A stretch of DNA of 64,000 nucleotides from the NCBI RefSeq assembly GCF_024448985.1, contig NZ_JAMOII010000016.1:1-64000 (forward strand), in the 5' to 3' direction. Below, piece after piece: positions 5,088-55,277 of the stretch. The stretch comes from Stutzerimonas stutzeri. Lineage in GTDB: Bacteria > Pseudomonadota > Gammaproteobacteria > Pseudomonadales > Pseudomonadaceae. The notes below the pieces were generated by a model, which saw nothing but the letters and a program-made list of their open reading frames with translations, searched no databases and had not been told where the DNA came from. A program made the position numbers and the translations under genes. Numbering within the stretch: position 1 is the first letter of the stretch; the number at the start of each line of letters is the position of its first letter.

Positions 5088-5545
5088 GGCGTGGTTTGCC
5101 CAGGTGGCGCCTCGGTGATAAGGCCCAGGTTCACCACGCCGCCGCGCTGCAGTTCGGCAATCCCTGCCACCACGCGCCCATAGTCGGCGGCATCATCGGC
5201 GCGTACGTAGACCTGGGTGTCGCCGCGCTCAGCGATGATTGCCGCAACCTTTTCCCGCATCTCCTCGAGGTCGATCGCGCTGTCGGTCTGGTCCTCTGCA
5301 TTCAGCTCGTTGCCCAGGTTCCAGTAGAAGCCGCCGTCGGCCTTGACCGATAGCGTGAGAATCTGCCGCTCGTTCTCGGTGGGCATCGCCTCGGCGGCGA
5401 CTTTGGGCAGTTCGATTTTCACACCCTGCACCAGCATCGGCGCGGTAACCATGAAGATCACCAGCAGTACCAGCATCACATCGATGTAGGGCACCACATT
5501 CATTTCGGCTTTAGGACCGTGTTTACGCTGTGGTTTGACCAGCAT
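5084..5545 (-). CDS. exbD: ExbD/TolR-family biopolymer transport protein
   Basis: About 153 residues from the ATG at 5545, chosen because an AAAGGAG site sits eight bases upstream; the longer in-frame extension overlaps exbB and is unlikely. The N-terminal cytoplasmic stretch leads into the ExbD membrane helix with its proton-carrying aspartate (NVVPYIDVMLVLLVIFMVTAP). The periplasmic domain has the usual ILTLSVKADGGFYW segment. With ExbB it forms the inner-membrane proton channel that drives TonB. It lies 13 bases after exbB and overlaps tonB by four bases, so the three genes form a compact operon. Confidence 0.9.
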   Translation of the reverse strand: MLVKPQRKHGPKAEMNVVPYIDVMLVLLVIFMVTAPMLVQGVKIELPKVAAEAMPTENERQILTLSVKADGGFYWNLGNELNAEDQTDSAIDLEEMREKVAAIIAERGDTQVYVRADDAADYGRVVAGIAELQRGGVVNLGLITEAPPGQTTP

Positions 5546-26198: not shown

Positions 26199-27038
26199 AT
26201 GGCAAACACAAGGTACTACGCCCCCACTGGCGGGCACCCAGCGCAGACTGAGTTGCTGACCGATCGCGCGATGTTCACGGAGGCCTACGCCGTCATTCCG
26301 AAGGGCGTGATGCGCGACATCGTCACCAGCCATCTGCCCTTCTGGGACAACATGCGCATGTGGGTGCTCGCCCGCCCGCTGTCCGGCTTCGCCGAGACCT
26401 TCTCCCAGTACATCGTTGAACTGGCCGACGGCGGTGGCAGCGAAAAGCCCGAGCAGGATCCGAACGCCGAAGGCGTACTCTTTGTGGTCGATGGCGAGTT
26501 CACCCTGACCCTCGAAGGCACCCAGCACGTCATGCGTCCGGGCGGCTACGCCTTCATCCCGCCGGCGGCCAAATGGAGCCTGCGCAACAACAGCGGCGCC
26601 CCTGCACGCTTCCACTGGGTACGCAAGTACTACCAGGCCGTCGAAGGGCTGCCATATCCGGAGGCGTTCGTCACCAACGAGCAGGACGTCGAGCCGATCG
26701 CGATGCCGGGCACCGATGGCAAGTGGGTCACTACTCGCTTCGTCGACATGAGCGACATGCGCCATGACATGCACGTGAACATCGTGACCTTCGAGCCGGG
26801 TGCGGTGATCCCATTCGCCGAAACCCACGTGATGGAGCACGGCCTGTACGTACTGGAAGGCAAGGCCGTCTATCGCCTGAACCAGGACTGGGTCGAAGTG
26901 GAAGCAGGCGACTACATGTGGCTACGCGCCTTCTGCCCGCAGGCCTGCTACTCCGGCGGCCCCGGCAAGTTCCGCTACCTGCTGTACAAGGATGTGAATC
27001 GTCACATGGACCTGGGCAAGTACAACCACCGGGCCTGA
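26199..27038 (+). CDS. allE: (S)-ureidoglycine aminohydrolase
   Basis: 279 residues from the ATG at 26199 with a GGGAG site; the longer frame to 26085 would run through the operator region. It is a bicupin: the first cupin (about 60-130) has GVLFVVDGEFTL and GGYAFIPP, and the second (about 185-260) has the metal-binding set around PFAETHVMEHGLYVLEG. AllE releases ammonia from ureidoglycine, giving ureidoglycolate in allantoin breakdown. Other allantoin genes are absent nearby, so it is a lone member here. A terminator follows at 27053. The double palindrome upstream suggests GntR control. Confidence 0.9.
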   Translation: MANTRYYAPTGGHPAQTELLTDRAMFTEAYAVIPKGVMRDIVTSHLPFWDNMRMWVLARPLSGFAETFSQYIVELADGGGSEKPEQDPNAEGVLFVVDGEFTLTLEGTQHVMRPGGYAFIPPAAKWSLRNNSGAPARFHWVRKYYQAVEGLPYPEAFVTNEQDVEPIAMPGTDGKWVTTRFVDMSDMRHDMHVNIVTFEPGAVIPFAETHVMEHGLYVLEGKAVYRLNQDWVEVEAGDYMWLRAFCPQACYSGGPGKFRYLLYKDVNRHMDLGKYNHRA

Positions 27039-27197: not shown

Positions 27198-28403
27198 TCA
27201 GGTGACAGCCTCGTGCCAGGAGCCAAAGGGGTCGGGAAGTCGCTCCCAAGTCTGCACGCCCGCGGCCATCTCCTGGTCGTCGAGCAGGCAGGCATCCAGT
27301 TCCGCGCTCAGTCGTTCGAAATCGATGTTCTGACCAATGAAAACCAGCTCCTGCCGGCAGTCGCCGGTCTGGACGTCCCAGTGCTTGAGAATTTCCTGCA
27401 TCCCCTCATCATCAGTGGGCCATTGTGTCTTCGGTACGAAGCGCCACCAACGCCCCGCCAGACCATGGCGCATCAGACCACCGGCCTGGGACCAGCTACC
27501 GGCCTCTTGGTGCTTGCTCGCAAGCCAGAAGAAGCCCTTGGAGCGCAGCAGCTTGCCATTGCTCCAGTCACGGATCAGAAATTCATGGAAACGCTGCGGA
27601 TGGAATGGCCGACGCGCACGATACGCGGTTGAGGCGATACCGTACTCCTCGCTTTCGGGCACGTGCTCGCCCCGTAGCTCCTTGAGCCAGCCTGGCGCTT
27701 GAGCGGCACGCTCGAAATCGAAGCGGCCGGTATCCAGGATATTGCCCAGCGGCACCTGGCCCATGCTCATCGGAATGATTTCAGCGCGCGTATTGAGGCC
27801 GCGCAGGATGGCAGTCAGCTCTTCACGTTCGGCGCTGGAAATCAGATCAATTTTGCTGATCAGGATGACGTCGGCGAACTCTACTTGTTCAATCAGCAGA
27901 TCGGTAATAGAGCGTTCATCCTCTTCGCCCAACGTCTCGCCGCGGCTGGCCAAGCTCTCCGCTTCGTGGAAATCAAGGAGAAAGTTGACCCCGTCGACCA
28001 CCGTGACCATGGTATCCAGGCGCGCGAGGTCGGACAGGCTCCGCCCCTGATCGTCGCGGAAGGTAAAGGTCTCGGCCACCGGCAAGGGTTCCGCGATGCC
28101 GGTGGATTCGATCAGCAGGTAGTCGAAACGGCCTTCGCGAGCCAGGCGACTAACCACCTCCAGCAGATCTTCGCGCAAGGTGCAGCAGATGCAGCCGTTG
28201 CTCATTTCCACCAGTTTCTCTTCGGCACGATTAAGGCTTACGTCGCGTTGTACTTCGCTGCCGTCGATGTTGATTTCGCTCATGTCGTTGACGATCACCG
28301 CGACACGACGGTTCTCGCGGTTCTTCAGCACATGGTTGAGGAGCGTGCTCTTGCCGGCGCCAAGAAAGCCGGACAGTACGGTGACGGGAAGTCGATCAGT
28401 CAT
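27198..28403 (-). CDS. zigA: COG0523 zinc GTPase metallochaperone
   Basis: 401 residues from the ATG at 28403, with GAGG upstream. The longer frame to 28724 overlaps dksA2 and is rejected. Walker A is GFLGAGKS (12-19), the metal-binding GCICC is at 70-74, and the guanine-specificity stretch is SKID near 178. The C-terminal CobW_C domain (about 265-385) is present. These GTPases deliver zinc to client enzymes during zinc starvation. The gene lies ten bases after dksA2 and both are downstream of a Zur-like palindrome at 28954-28968. This is the classic setting of the Zur-regulated COG0523 group. Confidence 0.9.
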
Positions 28404-28413
28404 AGGGGGAGCC

Positions 28414-28818
28414 TCAAGTCTCACGTAGATGTTTCTCTTTCTTTTCCTGCCGCTCCTTGGCCTCGATGCACAACGTCGCAGTAGGTCGCAGCAACAGGCG
28501 GCGCAGACCGATCGGGTCGCCGGTTTCCTCACACCAGCCGTATTCGCCGCGGGCCAGGCGCTCAAGTGCCCGGTCAATCTTGTCGAGCAGCTTCTTCTCA
28601 CGTTCGAGCAGGCGTAGCTGCCACTGTCGCTGCTCCTCCGTACTACCGATATCCGCAGGATCGCTGCTCGGCTCGTGATCGCGTAGTTCATCGAACTCGC
28701 TCGTGATTCGCTCCTGCAGCTCACGACGCTCGGTCAGCAGCAGTTCGCGAAAGAACGCCTGCTGCTGTTCGCTCATGTATGCGCTGGAGGGTTGCTGAAG
28801 CAGTTCCTGCTCAGTCAT
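28414..28818 (-). CDS. dksA2: Zinc-independent DksA paralogue
   Basis: 134 residues from the ATG at 28818. The coiled-coil tip motif DPAD is at 53-56, as in DksA, which acts through the RNA polymerase secondary channel with ppGpp. The zinc-finger positions read Cys96, Thr99, Cys117 and Ala120 in place of four cysteines, so the fold should not need zinc. This is the hallmark of DksA2, which replaces DksA under zinc limitation. It is the first gene of a dksA2-zigA unit behind the Zur-like site, about 136 bases away. Confidence 0.9.
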
Positions 28819-28953
28819 GGGTGGCACCAATGATCGATTGAGACGACACGACATCCATAAATCCGCTCTCTGACGTTCTTCTTGATAAAGGCGTTTGGCA
28901 TACCTGCTGGGCTACGGGTGGGATCCCATCAAGGGTGTCGCCCAGCTAGACAT

Positions 28954-28968
28954 TGTTATGATATAACA
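28954..28968. promoter_or_regulatory. Zur-like box between dksA2-zigA and rpmE2
   Basis: TGTTATGATATAACA is a perfect 6-3-6 palindrome matching the gammaproteobacterial Zur core GTTAT-n3-ATAAC. It lies 47 bases before the rpmE2 start and about 136 before dksA2, so it could repress both directions. Confidence 0.82.
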
Positions 28969-29015
28969 TTTGCAGCCATATCAATCACACCCAACTCGAA
29001 ATGAAGGAGCGGCTT

Positions 29016-29273
29016 ATGAAACCAGGCATCCATCCCGACTATCGTCCCGTCCTGTTCCACGACACGGCGGCGGACGTCTACTTCCTGATTGGCTCAACGG
29101 TCGAATCCAGCCGTACGCACCAGCACACCGATGGCAATACCTACCCGTACGTGGCGCTCGACGTATCCAGCGCATCGCATCCGGTCTACACCGGCCAGCA
29201 ACGCAAAACGACGTCCGAAGGCCGTATCGCGGGCTTCAACAAGCGCTTCGCAGGATTTACCACGAAGAAGTGA
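29016..29273 (+). CDS. rpmE2: Ribosomal protein L31 type B, zinc-free paralogue
   Basis: 85 residues from the ATG at 29016, with AAGGAG six bases upstream. It matches the long L31B form ([16 protein letters not shown], SGxT-like turn, basic C-terminus) and contains no cysteine, so it lacks the zinc-binding CxxC of type A. L31B replaces the zinc-binding L31 on ribosomes when zinc is short and so frees zinc. It starts 47 bases from the Zur-like box and is the first gene of the plus-strand zinc unit. Confidence 0.93.
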
Positions 29274-29298
29274 TCGCACTTTTCACAACGCCAAGACG

Positions 29299-29322
29299 AT
29301 CCGCTCGAATATTCGAGCGGAT
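29299..29322. other. Perfect 24-base palindrome between rpmE2 and the TonB receptor
   Basis: Each half reads ATCCGCTCGAAT toward the centre, forming a perfect 12-bp inverted repeat with no spacer. As RNA it would fold into a stable stem with a four-base loop. No T run follows (AGCGCCCT), so it is not a standard terminator. It may attenuate or partly uncouple the receptor operon from rpmE2, or be an operator. Confidence 0.6.
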
Positions 29323-29371
29323 AGCGCCCTAGCCCCCGATCACAATCATCCAAGCCACGGAAGACGCTTCA

Positions 29372-31333
29372 ATGTCCCGCAAGCCCCACCTTCTTACTGT
29401 CCGCACACCCGCCCGACTCGTTGCTGCCCTCGCCCTGCTACCTCTGGCCGCACTGGGCGCTGACCAGACCCTGAACTTCGAACCCACGGTCATCACCGCC
29501 ACCTCCACGGTGCGCCAGCTGAGCGATGCACCCGCAAGCGTTACGGTCATCACCCGCAAGGAACTGAGCATGCGGCCCGTTCAGGATCTCGAAGATGCCC
29601 TGCGCGGCACGCCGGGGCTCCAGTTCACCGGCATTGGCATGACACGCCGTGGCGTCAGCATTCGTGGGATGGGAAGCGAGCACACGCTCGTACTGTTGAA
29701 CGGGCAGCGCATCAATACGGCCGCAGGCGCCGTGGCGCACGCCGATTTCGATCTGGGCTGGGTGCCGGTGGAGGCTATCGAGCGCATCGAGGTGATACGC
29801 GGCCCGATGTCCTCGCTCTACGGCTCCGAGGCGCTCGGGGGTGTGGTCAATGTGATCACACGGCGCGCTACGGACGCATGGCAGGGCGCGGCGCAGATCA
29901 ACGGCGGCGTACGCGAGGACGGGCGCGGCGGCCAGACACACCAACTTGGGGCCTATGCCGGCGGCCCGCTTGTGCCTGGACTGCTCGGCCTATCCATGAG
30001 CGGCGAGACGCGGCGCCGCCAGGAAACGCCCTTTCACGACGATACCTCGCCGTCTGAGATCGAAGGCCGTGACGCACACAGCGGCGACATCACGCTGAGC
30101 TGGACGCCAGACACCGCGCAACGCATCGACCTCAGCTATGCAAGCGGCCTGGAGGATCGCTGGCGCAACACTCGCAGTGCTGGACGCGCACCGGTGGAGT
30201 ACGAGTCCAGCGATCGCATCGAACGTGAGCGATTCTCCCTCGTCCATAGCGGCGACTGGGCGTGGGGCAGCAGCTCGCTGCGCGCCTACCGCAACACACT
30301 GGAGCGTACCAACCGCTATACCAACGGCGTGGTCCCCTCCTCGCCACGTCAGGAACTCACCGACGACATCGTCGATGGCAGCCTGACCCTGCCATTTGCC
30401 GACATGCACCTGATCACGCTCGGCGGCGAGTGGCGCAAGGAGCAGCTGGAGGACGGCGGCTTTACGACAGGCGATGCCCGAATCATTCACCGTGCGCTGT
30501 TTCTGCAGGATGAAATCCAGTTCAACCCGGCCTGGTCGCTGGTCCTGGGCAACCGCTTCGATCAGCACGAGGAATACGGCTGGCACAACAGCCCGCGTGC
30601 CTACCTGGTTCACCATGTTAACGATGCCCTGACGATCAAGGGCGGCGGCGGCCGCGGGTTCAAGGCGCCCTCACTCAAGCAGCTATCGCCGGGCTATTCG
30701 GCCATCGGCGGCGGCGGGATGTTCAAGATTAACGGCAATCCGGATCTCGAACCCGAGATCAACACCATGTACGAAATCAGCGTGGACTATCAGGCAGACG
30801 GCTGGTCCGCGAACGCGGGTGTCTTTCAGAACAACGTGCGTGGTCTGATCCAAACGGTCTGCGTATCGAGCTGTGGCGTTCGCGGCCAAGAAGTTCGCAA
30901 CTACGACAACGTCGACGAAGCGCGCATCCGCGGGCTTGAGCTAGGCGGCGGTGTAGATTTGCCCGCCAACCTGCGCTGGGACCTGAACTACACCTACCTC
31001 GACGCCATCGACCGCAGCGCCGACCGGCGCCTGGGTGATCGCGCGCGTCATCTGGCCAACACCCAACTCCAATGGACGCCGAACGCCACGTTCACCGGGC
31101 AGCTGCGTGGCGAATACGTCGGCAGCCAGCTGACCTATTCCAGCAACACCGCCTATGCGGTGCCGGCCTACAGCCTGTGGCATCTGGAGCTGACGCAGCG
31201 GATTACCGACGCCCTGAGCATTCGCGGCGGCATCGAAAACCTGACCGACGAAGACTTCAGCGATGCGTCTGACAACTTCACCTTCGCCGAACCGGGCCGC
31301 ACCTATCACGTCGGCTTGAGCCTGAGTTTCTGA
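29372..31333 (+). CDS. TonB-dependent receptor of the zinc island
   Basis: 653 residues with a signal peptide ending near residue 29 (LGA). The plug (about 40-160) contains PVQDLEDALRGTPGLQFTGIGMTRRGVSIRGMGSEHTLVLLNGQR in family style and YGSEALGGVVNVITRR. The barrel ends in LSLSF. It resembles the CirA/BtuB-size class. The CobN-like gene starts two bases after its stop. In P. aeruginosa a Zur-controlled operon of the same composition (TonB receptor, CobN-like, small membrane proteins; PA1922-PA1925) is known. Zinc or a zinc complex is the likely ligand, by inference. Confidence 0.88.
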   Translation: MSRKPHLLTVRTPARLVAALALLPLAALGADQTLNFEPTVITATSTVRQLSDAPASVTVITRKELSMRPVQDLEDALRGTPGLQFTGIGMTRRGVSIRGMGSEHTLVLLNGQRINTAAGAVAHADFDLGWVPVEAIERIEVIRGPMSSLYGSEALGGVVNVITRRATDAWQGAAQINGGVREDGRGGQTHQLGAYAGGPLVPGLLGLSMSGETRRRQETPFHDDTSPSEIEGRDAHSGDITLSWTPDTAQRIDLSYASGLEDRWRNTRSAGRAPVEYESSDRIERERFSLVHSGDWAWGSSSLRAYRNTLERTNRYTNGVVPSSPRQELTDDIVDGSLTLPFADMHLITLGGEWRKEQLEDGGFTTGDARIIHRALFLQDEIQFNPAWSLVLGNRFDQHEEYGWHNSPRAYLVHHVNDALTIKGGGGRGFKAPSLKQLSPGYSAIGGGGMFKINGNPDLEPEINTMYEISVDYQADGWSANAGVFQNNVRGLIQTVCVSSCGVRGQEVRNYDNVDEARIRGLELGGGVDLPANLRWDLNYTYLDAIDRSADRRLGDRARHLANTQLQWTPNATFTGQLRGEYVGSQLTYSSNTAYAVPAYSLWHLELTQRITDALSIRGGIENLTDEDFSDASDNFTFAEPGRTYHVGLSLSF

Positions 31334-31334
31334 C

Positions 31335-34300
31335 ATGTCCAGTTGGATCAGAATCGGCGCGGCGCTAATCGCGCTGGCCGGCTGGGGAGCGACTGCGTTC
31401 GCCAATCCGGTACGGCAAGACATTCATGTACAGGTGCTGACGACCGACTTCGTCCTGCAGGGCAAGTTCGACCGGCTGGCGGGCTGGGCGGACCGATACG
31501 GTGTCACGCTCGATACCCTGCGCGTGTCCTCGGTAGCCACGCCGCAACACGGCACTGACGCGGACCTGCTGATACTGGACACGCCGCGCCCTGCGGACCT
31601 TGCGGCGGTCCAGCAGCAGTTCGACGCGCTAATCGCGAGGGGCACGCCTTGGATACGCGTCGGCGGGGGTTCGCCTGCCTTTGGCAACCTGCCTATGCCG
31701 GTCGCCAGGCGGTTGATCGGTTATTACGCTAACGGTGGCGAACAGAACCTCAGGGATCTGTTCGCCTACCTGCGAGCCTGGCACGACGACCTCCCCACCG
31801 ACTCGATTCCTGCCCCTACGGAGCTGGGCAAGGTCGGCTTCTATCATCCCGACGCACCCGCGCCCTTTACAGAACTCGACGAATACCTCGCCTGGGGCGC
31901 CGATCGCTGGACGAAAGATGCGCCGCGTGTCGCCTTCGCCATTCACCGCGGTGCCATCGTCGATAGCCACTTGCAGTTGCTCGACGCGTTGATGAAAAGC
32001 AGCGAATCGCGCGGCCAGGCTCCAATCGCGTTCTGGATGGATGACAGGGACCCACAGGCGCTGAGCAAGGTGCTGATACCCGCACGCAGCGATGTGCTGG
32101 TCAACCTTCAGCACATGCAGAACGGTCCGGCACGTCAGGCAGAGTTTCTAGCACTTGGCATCCCGGTGCTGTCCACCCTGACCTGGCGGGAAGGTGATTT
32201 TGCGCATTGGCAAGCGTCCGATAGCGGTATCACGGCGCGAACCGCCGCGGCCATGCTGACCATCCCCGAAAGCTGGGGCATGACCGATCCGCTGGTGATC
32301 GCCGCCGTCGAAAATGGCGAGCCGACCCCAATCCCCGAGCAAGTCGAGGCGCTGCTCGGCAAGGTCGACAGCCTGACCCGGCTGCGTCGGCTTGCCCCTG
32401 CGGAGAAACGTCTGACGTTGATGTTCTGGAACCATCCCGGCGGCGAAAAGAACGTGGCCGCGTCCAACCTCAACGTGCCACGCAGCCTGGCGCGCCTCTC
32501 TATTGCGCTGCAGACGGCCGGCTATGACGTGCCCGTCACGGGTGAGGCGCAGCTGATCGAAACGGCGCAGCGCCTGCTTGGCGGCTATTACCGGTCAGAC
32601 ACACTGGACGATCTGCTAGCCGACGGCCTTGCCGTGGCGTTGCCGCTGTCGGACTACCAGCGTTGGCTCGCAGATCTGCCGGCATTCAGACGCAAGGCAT
32701 TACTCGAGCGATGGGGCGATCCGACTGACCATTGGGCGCTACGTGAAGTAGACGGCAAGCCTCATTTCATCATTCCCGCCGCGCGCCTCGGCAAGCTATT
32801 ACTGCTGCCGCAACCGCCGCGTGCTGGCCGTCCCGGCGAGGCCTATCACGACAGCAAGGTCGCGCCGGATCATCTCTATCTGGCCGCCTATCAAGCGCTG
32901 CGAGAGGTCTTTAAAGCCGATGCGCTGATTCACTTCGGCACGCACGGCACGCAGGAATGGCTACCCGGTAAGGATCGCGGCCTGGCCGCGAGCGACTACC
33001 CCTTCCTTGCGCTGGGCGATATGCCGGTGTTCTACCCCTACATTCAGGACAACATTGGCGAGGCCATACAGGCGCGCCGTCGCGGTCGCGCGGTCATCGT
33101 CAGTCACCAGACACCGCCCTTTGCGCCCGCCGGGCTGTATGACGAGCTGCGCGACGTGCATGCGCTGATCCACGAATACCAGCAGCTTGACGAGGGCGCG
33201 GTGCGTGAAAACACGGCCGAACGTATTCGTCGGTTGGCCTTGCAAAGCAAGCTGCTGGAAGACCTTGGCTGGGACGAAGCGCGCATGCGCGCCAATACCG
33301 GAGACTTCCTGCTGGCGTTGCATGATTACCTGCACGAGATGGCCCAGGCGAACTTGCCGCTCGGCCTGCACACCTTCGGCGAGCCTGCATCCGCCGAACA
33401 CCGTCTGGCCACTGTGCTGCAACAGCTGGGCGAGCCCTACCTGCGTGCGCTGGAGCTGGCCGACGACGAGCCGATGGCCGAGGATTTCGCCGGACTGCAG
33501 GCCAGCCTTCCCTATCGCACCCTGCAGCGTTATTTGCGCGAGGATGAAAGCCTTGACTCGATTACCGATACCGAACTGCGCGAGCAGATCGAACGCGCAC
33601 GCGTGTTGGACGCCCGGCTGACCGACACAGGTGAAATGGAAGCGCTGCTGACCGGCCTTGCCGGCGGCTTCGTCGCACCCGGCCCCGGCGGCGATCCGGT
33701 GCGCAATCCGGACGTGCCAAGCGGTCGCAACCTCTACGCCTTCGAGGCCGACAAGTTGCCGACCCGAGCGGCCTATGAGGCAGGCGGCAAGGCACTGGAG
33801 CAACTGCTCGCGAGCTACCGTGATGAGCACGAAGGCGCATTGCCGACGAAGCTCGCCTTCAGCCTGTGGTCCTCCGAAGCCATGCGCCACCTGGGCATCC
33901 TCGAAAGCCAAGTCTTGCACGCACTGGGTGTACGTCCGGTTTGGGATGGGGGAGGACGGGTTCGTGCCCTGGAGATCATCCCGGCAGCGGAACTTGGCAG
34001 AGCACGCATTGATGTCGTCGTCCAGGTCACCAGCGTCTACCGCGATCAGTTCGATGGCTTCATGCGGCAATTGGCCGATGTGATGGAGCGGCTCGCCGTG
34101 CTGGATGAACCGGGCAACACGCTGGCCAGCAACAGCCGGCTGCTGGCCCAGCGGCTACAAGATCAAGGGGTCGATGCCGATCGCGCCGAGCGCTTGTCGC
34201 ACTTGCGGCTGTTCGGTAACGAGCCCGGCGATTACGGCACCGGTGTTTCTCAGTTGACGATGGATTCCACACGCTGGGAAAACGATTCGCAGCTCGCCGA

Positions 34301-35210
34301 GCAGTTCCTCTCGCGGTTGCAATATGGCTACGGCACCGGCAGTTGGGGAGAGAAAATCGACGGCCAGAACCTGTTCGCCGAACAACTCAGGGGGGGCCAG
34401 GCCGCGGTCATGGCCCGCTCCAGCGAGCTCAACGGCGTGCTGTCGACCGACCATCCGTTCGAGTTTCTAGGGGGACTTTCCCTGGCGGTCCGCCATCTCA
34501 ACGGTGCCAGCCCGTCGCTCTATATATCGGACCTGCGCAAGACCGAGCCCCGCACGACCGGCGCCGCGAGCTACCTCGCCAGTGAACTGCGCAGCCGCTA
34601 CTTGAACCCGCAATGGATCAGCGCAATGCAGCAGGAAGGCTACGCCGGCACGCTCGAGGTGTTGAACGTCGCCAACAACCTCTGGGGCTGGCAAGCCGCC
34701 GACCGCAGCATGGTTCGCGCCGACCAATGGCAGGCCCTGCATGACACCTTCGTAATGGACCAGCGCGAGCTTGGCCTCGATCAATGGTTCGAGGCACACA
34801 ACCCCACGGCTCAGGCCCAGCTGATCGAGCGTATGGCCGAGGCGATCCGCAAGGGTTACTGGGATGCCTCCGATCAAACCCGACGCGAACTGGCCGAACG
34901 TTGGCAGGCGCTCACCACTGGACATGGCGCCGATGCCGGCGAGCCGATTTCCCGAGACTTCATCGAACAGATGGCCGCCGGCTACGGCCTCGCGCCAACG
35001 GCCGCAACGCCCACCTCTTCAAGCAACGTGGGCGCGGACGAGGCGGTGCGCGGCCAGGTGATGCAGGAAGTGGCTGAGCAACCGAGCGAAGCGCCGAACC
35101 CATGGCGGCTTCTGCTCGGCATCGCCGCGTTGCTGTCGTGCCTCGTACTTGGCGCCCTACTCCAAGCGCTCGCCAACCATCGCGTCGAGCCGATTTTTAA
35201 TTCTCAGTGA
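31335..35210 (+). CDS. Periplasmic membrane-anchored CobN-like protein
   Basis: 1291 residues of the CobN/magnesium-chelatase H family. The hallmark HFGTHGTQEWLPGK lies near 534-547, with DMPVFYPYIQDNIGEA after it. Unlike cytoplasmic CobN it has an N-terminal signal peptide (about 1-24, ending AFA) and one C-terminal membrane helix (about 1256-1275, NPWRLLLGIAALL...). The bulk should therefore face the periplasm. The AAA+ partners CobS/CobT or ChlI/ChlD are absent. It is followed by ExbB-like and DUF2149 genes, and preceded by two bases by a TonB receptor. Family membership is clear. A role in zinc or metal-chelate handling under zinc starvation is an inference from the island. Confidence 0.88.
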   Translation: MSSWIRIGAALIALAGWGATAFANPVRQDIHVQVLTTDFVLQGKFDRLAGWADRYGVTLDTLRVSSVATPQHGTDADLLILDTPRPADLAAVQQQFDALIARGTPWIRVGGGSPAFGNLPMPVARRLIGYYANGGEQNLRDLFAYLRAWHDDLPTDSIPAPTELGKVGFYHPDAPAPFTELDEYLAWGADRWTKDAPRVAFAIHRGAIVDSHLQLLDALMKSSESRGQAPIAFWMDDRDPQALSKVLIPARSDVLVNLQHMQNGPARQAEFLALGIPVLSTLTWREGDFAHWQASDSGITARTAAAMLTIPESWGMTDPLVIAAVENGEPTPIPEQVEALLGKVDSLTRLRRLAPAEKRLTLMFWNHPGGEKNVAASNLNVPRSLARLSIALQTAGYDVPVTGEAQLIETAQRLLGGYYRSDTLDDLLADGLAVALPLSDYQRWLADLPAFRRKALLERWGDPTDHWALREVDGKPHFIIPAARLGKLLLLPQPPRAGRPGEAYHDSKVAPDHLYLAAYQALREVFKADALIHFGTHGTQEWLPGKDRGLAASDYPFLALGDMPVFYPYIQDNIGEAIQARRRGRAVIVSHQTPPFAPAGLYDELRDVHALIHEYQQLDEGAVRENTAERIRRLALQSKLLEDLGWDEARMRANTGDFLLALHDYLHEMAQANLPLGLHTFGEPASAEHRLATVLQQLGEPYLRALELADDEPMAEDFAGLQASLPYRTLQRYLREDESLDSITDTELREQIERARVLDARLTDTGEMEALLTGLAGGFVAPGPGGDPVRNPDVPSGRNLYAFEADKLPTRAAYEAGGKALEQLLASYRDEHEGALPTKLAFSLWSSEAMRHLGILESQVLHALGVRPVWDGGGRVRALEIIPAAELGRARIDVVVQVTSVYRDQFDGFMRQLADVMERLAVLDEPGNTLASNSRLLAQRLQDQGVDADRAERLSHLRLFGNEPGDYGTGVSQLTMDSTRWENDSQLAEQFLSRLQYGYGTGSWGEKIDGQNLFAEQLRGGQAAVMARSSELNGVLSTDHPFEFLGGLSLAVRHLNGASPSLYISDLRKTEPRTTGAASYLASELRSRYLNPQWISAMQQEGYAGTLEVLNVANNLWGWQAADRSMVRADQWQALHDTFVMDQRELGLDQWFEAHNPTAQAQLIERMAEAIRKGYWDASDQTRRELAERWQALTTGHGADAGEPISRDFIEQMAAGYGLAPTAATPTSSSNVGADEAVRGQVMQEVAEQPSEAPNPWRLLLGIAALLSCLVLGALLQALANHRVEPIFNSQ

Positions 35211-35220
35211 ACCGAAACCC

Positions 35221-35700
35221 ATGAATGCACTTGAAACCAGTCTCTACGAACTGACACGCATCTTTCTCGTACCCGTTCTGCTATTGATCCTGGCCGCGCT
35301 GGCTTATGCCTTTTTGGCATTGGGCAGCTTCGCCATGGAGGCCTGGCAACGCCGTAACGGCCGCTATCGTTCCGTCCTCGCCGCGCACCAAGCGGCAAAC
35401 GGTGGCACCAGCGATGACCTCGAGCTCTGGATCATGCAACGCCTGGAATGGCTGCGCGTAACCTCGCGCAGCGCGCCGATGCTGGGGCTGGTCGCGACGA
35501 TGATTCCCATGGGCCCAGCCCTGCTGGCACTGACCCAGAGCGATGCAAAAGGCATCGGCGAGAATCTGGTGGTCGCCTTCTCCTCGGTGATCCTCGCGCT
35601 CATCGCAGCGAGCGTCACCTTCTTCATTCTCACCGTTCGGCGCCGCTGGCTGTTGCAGGAGCTGCGTGCCATCGAGCGCGCCGGGGTACAGTACCGATGA
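35221..35700 (+). CDS. MotA/TolQ/ExbB-like proton channel protein
   Basis: 159 residues from the ATG at 35221, ten bases after the CobN-like stop; a longer frame overlaps that gene. Three likely membrane helices (about 12-36, 85-105, 118-142) and the stretch SAPMLGLVATMIPMGPALLAL recall the ExbB/TolQ pore helices (TxPxLGLLGTVxGM). It is shorter than true ExbB. The next gene overlaps by four bases and encodes an ExbD-like DUF2149 protein. Together they probably form a small pmf-driven motor for the CobN-like protein or the receptor; that is inference. Confidence 0.82.
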   Translation: MNALETSLYELTRIFLVPVLLLILAALAYAFLALGSFAMEAWQRRNGRYRSVLAAHQAANGGTSDDLELWIMQRLEWLRVTSRSAPMLGLVATMIPMGPALLALTQSDAKGIGENLVVAFSSVILALIAASVTFFILTVRRRWLLQELRAIERAGVQYR

Positions 35701-36020
35701 GATTTCTCGACCATGACGACGACGATGACCCGCTGCTGTCAGTCGTCAACCTGATCGATTTGTTCCTGGTGGTGATCGGCATTCTGCTCATCGTCATCGT
35801 GCAGAACCCGCTCAATCCATTCAGCCAGGAGAAGGTCGTGGTTATCGAAAATCCGGGCGAAGCGAACATGCGCATGCTGATCAAGGACGGTCAGGAGTTG
35901 AAGCAATATGAGTCGAATGGGGAAATCGGCGAGGGCCAGGGCGCCAAGGCTGGAATCACCTATCGCCTGAACGACGGAAGGATGATTTATGTGCCCGAGG
36001 AGAATGCATTGGTTAAGTGA
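35697..36020 (+). CDS. DUF2149 protein, ExbD-like
   Basis: 107 residues starting in the stop codon of the previous gene (ATGA overlap). A short acidic N-terminus (DHDDDDDP) leads into one membrane helix (NLIDLFLVVIGILLIVIVQNP) with an aspartate at its start, like the proton-carrying Asp of ExbD/TolR. A small periplasmic domain follows. DUF2149 proteins are found beside CobN-like and ExbB-like genes in bacteria and archaea. It closes the rpmE2-receptor-CobN-ExbB-like run. Confidence 0.85.
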   Translation: MRFLDHDDDDDPLLSVVNLIDLFLVVIGILLIVIVQNPLNPFSQEKVVVIENPGEANMRMLIKDGQELKQYESNGEIGEGQGAKAGITYRLNDGRMIYVPEENALVK

Positions 36021-36160: not shown

Positions 36161-36173
36161 GTTATATTATAAC
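36161..36173. promoter_or_regulatory. Second Zur-like box, upstream of the DUF1624 gene
   Basis: GTTATATTATAAC is a perfect palindrome with the same GTTAT-n3-ATAAC core as the site at 28954-28968. It lies 35 bases before the DUF1624 start, in an AT-rich patch, and gives this gene its own zinc-responsive promoter. Confidence 0.78.
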
Positions 36174-54828: not shown

Positions 54829-55277
54829 GGCGCCTCGGTAATCAAGCCGACGTTACCGACACCCGCTTCCTGCAGTCCGCCCATGGCGGACATCACCGAA
54901 CCGTAGTCCACCGCCTTGTCGCCACGCACGAACACCTGAACCTGCTTACCCTGGCTACGGTTCTGGTTCATGATCGCGGTGACCGCTTTGGTCATCTCAT
55001 CCAGTGTCAGGGCCTGATCCTGAACGGTTTCGGTGTCCACTTCGCTCCCGATGTTCCAGAAGTAAGTCTTGTCCGCCTTGATCGAAATGGTCAGTACTTG
55101 AGCATCGTTATCCTGGGGCAGGGCTTCGCTGCTGACCTTGGGCAGATCAACCTTTACGCCCTGATTGAGCATTGGCGCGGTCACCATGAAGATGACGAGC
55201 AGCACCAGCATCACGTCGATGTAGGGCACCACGTTCATCTCGGCGACAGGTTTGCGTCTGTTGCGAATTCTGGCCAT
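54825..55277 (-). CDS. tolR: Tol-Pal system protein TolR
   Basis: 150 residues. A single N-terminal membrane helix carries the proton-binding aspartate (AEMNVVPYIDVMLVLLVIFMVTAP), followed by a periplasmic domain with ILTISIKADKTYFWNIG. TolR and TolQ form the motor for TolA. Its start is 12 bases after the tolQ stop and its end overlaps tolA. Compare the ExbD at 5084-5545, which shares this helix almost exactly. Confidence 0.95.
   Translation of the reverse strand: MARIRNRRKPVAEMNVVPYIDVMLVLLVIFMVTAPMLNQGVKVDLPKVSSEALPQDNDAQVLTISIKADKTYFWNIGSEVDTETVQDQALTLDEMTKAVTAIMNQNRSQGKQVQVFVRGDKAVDYGSVMSAMGGLQEAGVGNVGLITEAP

Follow-up and report, generated by a model that had tools for sequence, protein, structure and literature searches.

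Closest described systems

HmuS of Bacteroides thetaiotaomicron (EMBO J 2025; PDB codes 9d26 and 9p4s) is described as a heme de-chelatase that yields protoporphyrin IX (PPIX) and Fe(II) from heme. The recombinant protein, without its membrane ends and without HmuU/HmuV, halts after one to two turnovers, for which its authors offer instability, missing cofactors or product inhibition as reasons (PMC12583661). A double mutant of BtuS1 and BtuS2 of Bacteroides fragilis grows poorly with heme as the sole iron source (PMC6460266, in excerpt), and excerpts of reviews class PA1922–PA1925 of Pseudomonas aeruginosa as a free zinc import system, with PA1924 as an ExbD homologue. Here we compare these systems with a gene set of Stutzerimonas stutzeri that lies in a 64,000-nucleotide stretch (assembly GCF_024448985.1, contig NZ_JAMOII010000016.1, positions 1–64,000; genome 4.2 Mb, with nearest named proteins of the Stutzerimonas kind at 94% identity), referred to below as the window. 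The set encodes a TonB-dependent receptor, a CobN-like protein, an ExbB-like protein and a DUF2149 protein, and represents the zinc-regulated side of a lineage in which the heme side has already been solved. The original prediction, which knew of no described mechanism for such operons, fails in this respect because HmuS, from the same lineage and with the same ExbB-like and DUF2149 genes, is already a solved de-chelatase (PMC12583661); the system is thus less unprecedented than first thought. Receptor, enzyme and motor together probably serve to import a chelate and pull zinc out of it; the ExbB/DUF2149 motor probably belongs to the metal-pulling CobN-like enzyme.

Organization of the operon and topology of the CobN-like protein

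The receptor gene and the three genes downstream of it, with the parts of the CobN-like protein discussed below, are as follows.

29372–31333, plus strand: TonB-dependent receptor, CirA-like (425 bits, under the CirA cut-off of 745)
31335–35210, plus strand: CobN-like gene, 1291 residues (PF02514, 995 bits, residues 129–1182)
31335–31403, plus strand: predicted signal peptide of the CobN-like protein, residues 1–23 (sequence and hydropathy)
32112–32114, plus strand: codon of His260, equivalent to HmuS His254, a site-1 heme ligand
32943–32945, plus strand: codon of His537, equivalent to the catalytic His538 of HmuS, in HFGTHG
34452–34463, plus strand: codons of His1040 to Glu1043, equivalent to HmuS His1209 to Glu1212 (LSTDHPFEFLGG)
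35103–35174, plus strand: predicted C-terminal membrane helix of the CobN-like protein, approximately residues 1257–1280 (hydropathy)
35221–35700, plus strand: ExbB-like motor subunit, 159 residues, HmuU counterpart (PF01618, 27.3 bits, cut-off 22.9)
35697–36020, plus strand: DUF2149 motor subunit, 107 residues, HmuV counterpart (PF09919, 99.5 bits, scanned from residue 2)

The plus-strand order is rpmE2, receptor, CobN-like, ExbB-like and DUF2149, with palindromes flanking both ends. The receptor stop codon and the CobN-like ATG are separated by one base (TGACATG), 10 bases separate the CobN-like and ExbB-like frames, and the ExbB-like and DUF2149 frames overlap in ATGA. Profiles and frames thus confirm the three-gene set at 31335–36020, its coordinates and the coupling of its frames as originally described. 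None of the five genes between 29001 and 36020 encodes HmuY or HmuT. A Prevotella hmu operon contains, in order, HmuY, a receptor, a CobN-family protein, a Pfam-less protein at the HmuT place, a MotA/TolQ/ExbB protein and a DUF2149 protein; because of this order, and the Pfams shared with the window operon, HmuU and HmuV are taken as the counterparts of the ExbB-like and DUF2149 proteins, an annotation also given in an excerpt of PMC10434189.

Hydropathy assigns MSSWIRIGAALIALAGWGATAFA as a signal peptide, which by our reading would be cleaved after AFA, and WRLLLGIAALLSCLVLGALLQALA as a C-terminal membrane helix. The CobN-like protein is therefore predicted to be an exported, membrane-anchored periplasmic member of the HmuS/BtuS lineage, a topology that had been proposed at the outset together with the lack of an AAA+ partner in the locus, which also stands. 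It is the sole PF02514 match in the genome, and NCBIfam still labels it CobN (NF004644, 2026 bits). Cytoplasmic CobN–CobST and ChlH–ChlID chelatases insert metals with the help of AAA+ partners. An identity as aerobic cobaltochelatase CobN was rejected, since the best CobS match in the genome reaches 24.3 bits of the required 558.6 (CobT was not part of the search) and CbiC was not found; so was an identity as magnesium chelatase ChlH/BchH, with ChlI at 25.5 bits of 467, a cut-off that none of the control genomes passes either (ChlD was not part of the search).

Relationship to HmuS

The best match of the CobN-like protein among solved chains is HmuS (9d26, E-value 3e-131, 443 bits), followed by CobN (379 and 369 bits) and ChlH (349 bits). 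The window protein shares HmuS His254, His538, Glu577, Ser1014, Asp1208, His1209 and Glu1212, and thereby keeps both catalytic pairs, His538/Glu577 and His1209/Glu1212. It departs from HmuS at Met79, Gly255, Arg256, Ser1067 (Thr), Gln1198 (Ser) and Trp1202 (Asn); the Met79–Gly80 stretch reads DTPR, such that the site-1 pair is half kept (His254 only). The Met-rich domain IV insertion is not found (24 Met in 1291 residues, at most three in any 60-residue stretch). HmuS proper, acting on heme, was rejected as an identity, given that Met79, the Met-rich insertion and a complete hmuYRSTUV operon are not present.

The window's class comprises the window and 77 of 80 loci (L019, L074 and L081 were dropped for shorter open frames). 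Across these 78 proteins, His538, Glu577 and Asp1208 are each conserved in 78, His1209 and His254 in 76, and Glu1212 in 74. Among 30 canonical CobN proteins, 29 have Asp1209 and 29 have Gln1212, and position 254 is Gly, Ala or Ser. Position 1209 is mixed in 20 further controls, some of which look BchH-like, with His in seven; His1209 alone is therefore no signature. Only L138 and L139 of the 11 motor-linked loci L131–L141 have His254, His538, His1209 and Glu1212 together, and all six B12-type motor-linked proteins (L130, L142–L146) have Asp1209. His1209 was considered as a mark of porphyrin substrates and Asp1209 as one of corrin substrates, which was rejected: the proteins of L132, L133 and L136 stand beside heme receptors and have Asp, hence His1209 cannot separate the two. 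At L137 (6919–10869), the motor-linked CobN-like protein has Asn in the His538 column and Met in the His1209 column, and the ExbB-like and DUF2149 genes are kept; it is perhaps a binding-only relative.

Of 398 Pseudomonadota genomes surveyed, 134 have a PF02514 match and 17 have DUF2149, the latter at 18 places. An ExbB-like gene adjoins DUF2149 at all 18, and a CobN-family gene is present in all 17 DUF2149 stretches fetched with long flanks, the eighteenth place being the window itself. Neither motor gene was found within the fetched flanks of 50 control PF02514 loci, which consist of the best 30 scores (flanks of about 1.1–1.5 kb) and 20 hand-picked among the matches listed (about 2.4–4.1 kb). 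By hydropathy, a C-terminal membrane helix is present in 94 of 95 motor-linked proteins versus none of the 50 controls; N-terminal hydropathy does not separate the groups (92 of 95 and 22 of 50 pass). In a 70-row tree, computed by a quick method without bootstrap and with long branches for HmuS and L137, the 40 motor-linked proteins, HmuS among them, and the 30 controls fall on opposite sides of one branch (SH-aLRT 100). The rows are the window, 19 of the 77 class loci, L130–L146, three motor plasmid loci, 28 of the 50 controls and two plasmid controls. The window protein lies in the HmuS clade, apart from the CobN and ChlH-type controls.

Motor subunits

The ExbB-like protein scores above the cut-off of the MotA/TolQ/ExbB profile (27.3 bits versus 22.9) and reaches a probability of 89% in a profile comparison. 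Its model has a pLDDT of 90.6, and rows 1–42 of the PDB matches from Foldseek are all TolQ, ExbB or PomA (probability 0.60–1.00, best E-value 0.006). The DUF2149 protein matches PF09919 only; it has no match to PF02472 (ExbD/TolR) and does not appear in the PF02472 search of its own genome. Its single helix carries Asp21, which was aligned with Asp21 of the genome's own ExbD/TolR protein (19 columns, probability 41%, P-value 2.8e-4), and of 97 distinct sequences, 96 have Asp at this position, the remaining one being unaligned there; the Runella protein has Glu. In a low-confidence model, a small beta domain stands beside the helix. Neither subunit has a significant match among PDB sequences. 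The ExbB-type motor next to the CobN-like gene, as well as the ExbD-like aspartate in the DUF2149 helix, had been anticipated, and both are borne out, the aspartate by an alignment of the stated probability. The genome has four ordinary ExbD/TolR genes, two of which are in the window on the minus strand (5111–5515 and 54834–55256) with ExbB/TolQ-type neighbours.

Evolutionary distances at 21 loci were used to ask which partner the motor follows. The loci were chosen by hand (15 diverse and six zinc-class, with L139 omitted as a near-copy of L138), and the distances were raw rather than Kimura-corrected. With the receptor held constant, motor divergence tracks the CobN-like protein (partial r 0.80 for the ExbB-like and 0.76 for the DUF2149 protein; 0 of 2000 permutations each), whereas with the CobN-like protein held constant the partial r values against the receptor are 0.05 and -0.15 (613 and 1730 of 2000 permutations). 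An earlier run on 72 loci, in which a length filter left just three diverse loci, gave no discrimination overall.

Predicted zinc control

The operon is surrounded by zinc-related features, which substantiates the zinc link of the original prediction.

27198–28562, minus strand: zigA, zinc metallochaperone GTPase (NCBIfam NF038288, 686 bits, cut-off 600)
28414–28854, minus strand: dksA-like gene (TIGR02420, above cut-off)
28955–28967: Zur-box-like palindrome GTTATGATATAAC, between dksA-like/zigA (minus) and rpmE2 (plus)
29001–29273, plus strand: rpmE2, type B (zinc-free) ribosomal protein L31 (NF002462, above cut-off)
36161–36173: second, exact Zur-box palindrome GTTATATTATAAC, preceding the next gene

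The profile match of zigA starts at residue 58 of the scanned stretch, such that its true start lies further inside. The dksA-like gene is taken as dksA2 by its position, and rpmE2 is likely the first gene of the transcript; dksA2, rpmE2 and zigA are counted among Zur-regulon genes in the literature. The palindrome at the operon front is a predicted Zur site, exact to GTTATANNATAAC on the minus strand and with one mismatch on the plus strand; over the whole window, up to two mismatches give five Zur-box matches versus 2.05 expected. A membrane protein of HGSNAT type (PF07786, 36209–37408) lies downstream of the exact palindrome and may be a further zinc-starvation gene. An (S)-ureidoglycine aminohydrolase gene (26199–27038, NCBIfam equivalog above cut-off) stands beside the zinc genes with no obvious link to them.

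Zur-like sites, defined as at most one mismatch to GTTATRNYATAAC in the region from -300 to +60 relative to the receptor frame, were sought at 73 of the 80 loci (seven have no receptor start). They occur at 36 of the 73 operon fronts, 17 of them exact, versus 45 and 10 of 13974 random windows from the same loci, which were not matched for intergenic AT content. In P. aeruginosa PA7 (L067), the site is 45 bases upstream of the receptor frame; in Stutzerimonas loci L002–L006, rpmE2 comes first, as in the window, and the site is 311–426 bases upstream. A Pseudomonas survey, as excerpted, reports Zur control of PA1922 homologues only in P. aeruginosa from a scan of 150 bases upstream of the ATG (PMC10393844), a distance at which the rpmE2-first loci would be missed because of the position of their site. 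Predicted Zur control of PA1922-type operons is therefore wider than published. For the P. aeruginosa operon itself, excerpts report that PA1922–PA1925 rise 45- to 147-fold after znuA loss (PMC4542158) and that Zur binds the PA1922 promoter in electrophoretic mobility shift assays, even without added metal (PMC8531726).

Metal contexts of the lineage

Of the 17 unbiased DUF2149 loci, L138 alone carries a Zur-like site a short way upstream of its receptor (with one mismatch), and the zinc class thus makes up only a minor part of the lineage. Cobalamin riboswitches lie near the motor-linked core in five of the 17 loci (L130, L142, L143, L145 and L146), with BtuB-like receptors below the formal cut-off in L145 and L146, CobB in L142 and L145, BtuR in L142 and CbiZ in L130; the L130 receptor best matches a heme receptor, also below cut-off. 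A B12 riboswitch before some hmu-like operons of Bacteroidota is already on record (PMC10100974, in excerpt). Among ten receptors scanned, heme-receptor cut-offs are exceeded at L132, L133 and L136, and heme-type neighbours include ChaN in L136 and HmuY in L135. On the Runella plasmid pRUNSL01 (L168, 3338–11372), a receptor, a permease resembling NicO nickel transporters (below cut-off), and ExbB-like, DUF2149 and CobN-like genes are placed in a hypABF..hypCDE hydrogenase maturation cluster, which suggests a nickel version. We propose, tentatively and at somewhat less than an even chance, a family of proton-driven de-chelatases: a CobN-like lineage with an ExbB/DUF2149 motor for the AAA+ ATPases and its own C-terminal helix at the TonB/TolA place, fitted to iron (heme), zinc (Zur), corrinoid cobalt (B12 riboswitches) and nickel (hydrogenase maturation). 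The zinc and nickel contexts were not found placed in the HmuS lineage in the open-access literature searched.

Two further loci are described for their gene content. L130 (709–13096), with a cobalamin riboswitch in front, encodes a receptor, DUF2162, ExbB-like and DUF2149 proteins, a CbiZ-periplasmic binding domain fusion and a CobN-like protein, continuing with CbiK, a binding protein and a second ExbB; it is a rich corrinoid salvage set. On a Deinococcus ficus plasmid (L171, 3496–10940), a CobN gene has genes for a nickel transporter of NicO type and for a VWA protein as neighbours, ExbB and DUF2149 genes were not found, and a nickel role of this motor-less relative is possible. HmuT, the Runella NicO-like permease and DUF2162 were considered as one permease family, an idea dropped when BLASTP gave no similarity.

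Proposed function and alternative explanations

We propose metal salvage during zinc starvation, in which a Zur-controlled de-chelatase strips zinc from an imported chelate and ExbB/DUF2149 provides a proton-driven reset; we consider the chances for and against this proposal to be about balanced. When Zur loses zinc, a single rpmE2–receptor–cobN–exbB–DUF2149 transcript would be made, as the published P. aeruginosa counterpart supports. The receptor, powered by the ordinary TonB system, would carry chelated zinc, most likely held in a tetrapyrrole, to the periplasm. There, judging by homology and residues, the anchored CobN-like protein would hold the chelate in the His537–His1040 cavity and extract the metal as HmuS does from heme. 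The ExbB-like ring with DUF2149, using a proton path via Asp21, would turn or push the CobN-like anchor, thereby opening the enzyme and freeing the product for the next turnover; the motor would thus stand in, outside the cytoplasm, for the ATP-driven ChlI/ChlD or CobS/CobT. The released zinc would pass to inner-membrane zinc importers. Such product release would fit the one to two turnovers of HmuS without membrane ends and partners (PMC12583661, in excerpt). The original prediction left open whether metal is inserted, stripped or pulled; stripping is preferred to insertion because the closest characterised relative, HmuS, strips.

Several observations weigh against this proposal. The HmuS pocket residues Gln1198 and Trp1202 are Ser and Asn in the window protein; Met79 and the Met-rich insert are not found in it, nor HmuY and HmuT in its operon; and His1209 is missing in nine of the 11 other motor-linked and all six B12-type proteins. 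The DUF2149 model is of low confidence (pTM 0.31), with no ExbD among the 50 matches listed. Among 69 zinc-class loci, the motor leans slightly to the receptor (partial r 0.32 versus 0.25 for the CobN-like protein with the ExbB-like subunit, and 0.26 versus 0.14 with DUF2149), and receptor distances between classes may be saturated, inflating the 21-locus contrast. A Zur-like site is found neither in the tested front nor before rpmE2 at 32 of the 73 class loci. Purified HmuS removes the metal in the absence of HmuU/HmuV, which means that the chemistry itself does not need the motor, and the excerpted text gives other reasons for the turnover limit (PMC12583661). No zinc chelate was found as a known substrate, and the literature searched on zinc porphyrin uptake gave nothing relevant.

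The ExbB/DUF2149 pair might instead be an extra TonB motor that energises the neighbouring receptor, leaving the CobN-like enzyme to work alone. We consider this rather unlikely, even though excerpts assign HmuU/HmuV and PA1924 in this way (PMC10100974, PMC12583661 and PMC4542158), receptor and motor share one operon, and the zinc-class distances tilt slightly in that direction. The five operon genes, from 29001 to 36020, include no tonB, and the genome has its ordinary ExbD/TolR genes; over the 21 loci the motor tracks the CobN-like protein, not the receptor. No receptor was found in the fetched stretch at four of the 17 DUF2149 loci (L140, L142, L143 and L144), with a search model built on CirA-like receptors and with the L144 stretch stopping near a contig end, and the cobN-like gene of L143 directly follows a weak match to a B12 riboswitch (33.5 bits against a cut-off of 31.5). 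Moreover, Methanosarcina acetivorans, an archaeon without an outer membrane, is alone among 14 control genomes in having DUF2149 (neighbours unseen); a protein search gave no archaeal name among the 120 matches listed, most of them without a name. A 2026 paper reports that P. aeruginosa is impaired in zinc homeostasis when tonB1 is lost (PMC12838275), which fits a receptor driven by the ordinary TonB.

Returning to the proposed zinc de-chelatase, its substrate and its activity can each be questioned. The system could handle cobalt or a corrinoid, with cobalt stripped or imported as a stand-in during zinc shortage; relatives under cobalamin riboswitches with BtuB-like receptors, CobB, BtuR or CbiZ point this way, as does a cobalt link mentioned in excerpts of PMC4542158 and PMC13083405. 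We judge it improbable, as His1209/Glu1212 of the window's class are replaced in B12-type relatives by Asp1209 and by Asp or Gln1212, and the receptor is best matched by CirA, with TonB-B12 ninth (225 bits of 599.7). A B12 box was not found upstream within three mismatches at 80 of 81 loci (L051 has two weak three-mismatch matches, and L001, one of the 81, is a short window piece); the same box was recovered within two mismatches in six of seven Rfam riboswitches. It is similarly improbable that the CobN-like protein lacks de-chelatase activity and serves in the periplasm as a binder, as a chaperone or for inserting zinc into a ligand. A Porphyromonas gingivalis paper weighs a chaperone role for HmuS (PMC13227078), cytoplasmic relatives insert metals, and L137 keeps its motor genes without the catalytic His. 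Against this, the catalytic His/Glu pairs are conserved throughout the window's class, zinc buried in a ring would presumably not help a zinc-starved cell, and B. thetaiotaomicron HmuS releases PPIX and Fe(II) (PMC12583661, in excerpt).

The comparison links the Pseudomonas zinc regulon, where PA1922–PA1925 are classed as free-zinc import, with the literature on heme de-chelation, and predicts that bacteria short of zinc obtain it from chelates, zinc porphyrins for example. Assigning the motor to the enzyme offers an explanation, open to testing, of why purified HmuS stops after one to two turnovers, and would give the DUF2149 family a function. No paper in the open-access literature searched names HmuS together with PA1923 or PA1922. 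As far as our searches reach, four points are new: the link between HmuS and the zinc regulon, the broader range of predicted Zur control, the spread of the lineage over different metals, and the evidence joining motor and de-chelatase.

Comparison with known systems

The window protein resembles HmuS in its PF02514 fold, anchored ectodomain, clade and residues (His538/Glu577/His1209/Glu1212 and His254), and its operon resembles hmuYRSTUV in having a receptor upstream and ExbB-like and DUF2149 genes downstream of the CobN-family gene. In contrast to the iron/heme operon, it has a Zur-type site in front and a CirA-like receptor, without HmuY and HmuT; the protein itself shares 26–29% identity with HmuS and differs in the absence of the Met-rich insert and Met79 and in Ser/Asn for Gln1198/Trp1202. 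BtuS1 and BtuS2 are likewise predicted periplasmic, anchored CobN-like proteins, but are from Bacteroidota and heme-linked, with no zinc link in the excerpts of PMC6460266. CobN–CobST and ChlH–ChlID chelatases share the PF02514 fold and the HxGxHG histidine, whereas the CobN/ChlH controls have no C-terminal helix (50 controls), have Asp1209 in CobN and fall on the opposite side of the tree. The motor resembles those of TonB–ExbB–ExbD and Tol in its ExbB/TolQ fold and in the Asp of the single helix of the second subunit. It differs in having no TonB/TolA gene and PF09919 instead of PF02472, and, in the low-confidence model, a small beta domain replaces the ExbD domain in DUF2149. PA1922–PA1925 of the P. 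aeruginosa Zur regulon comprise the same four genes in identical order, and the PA7 locus and the window group together in the tree; the gene behind the Zur site is that of the receptor in P. aeruginosa and rpmE2 in the window.

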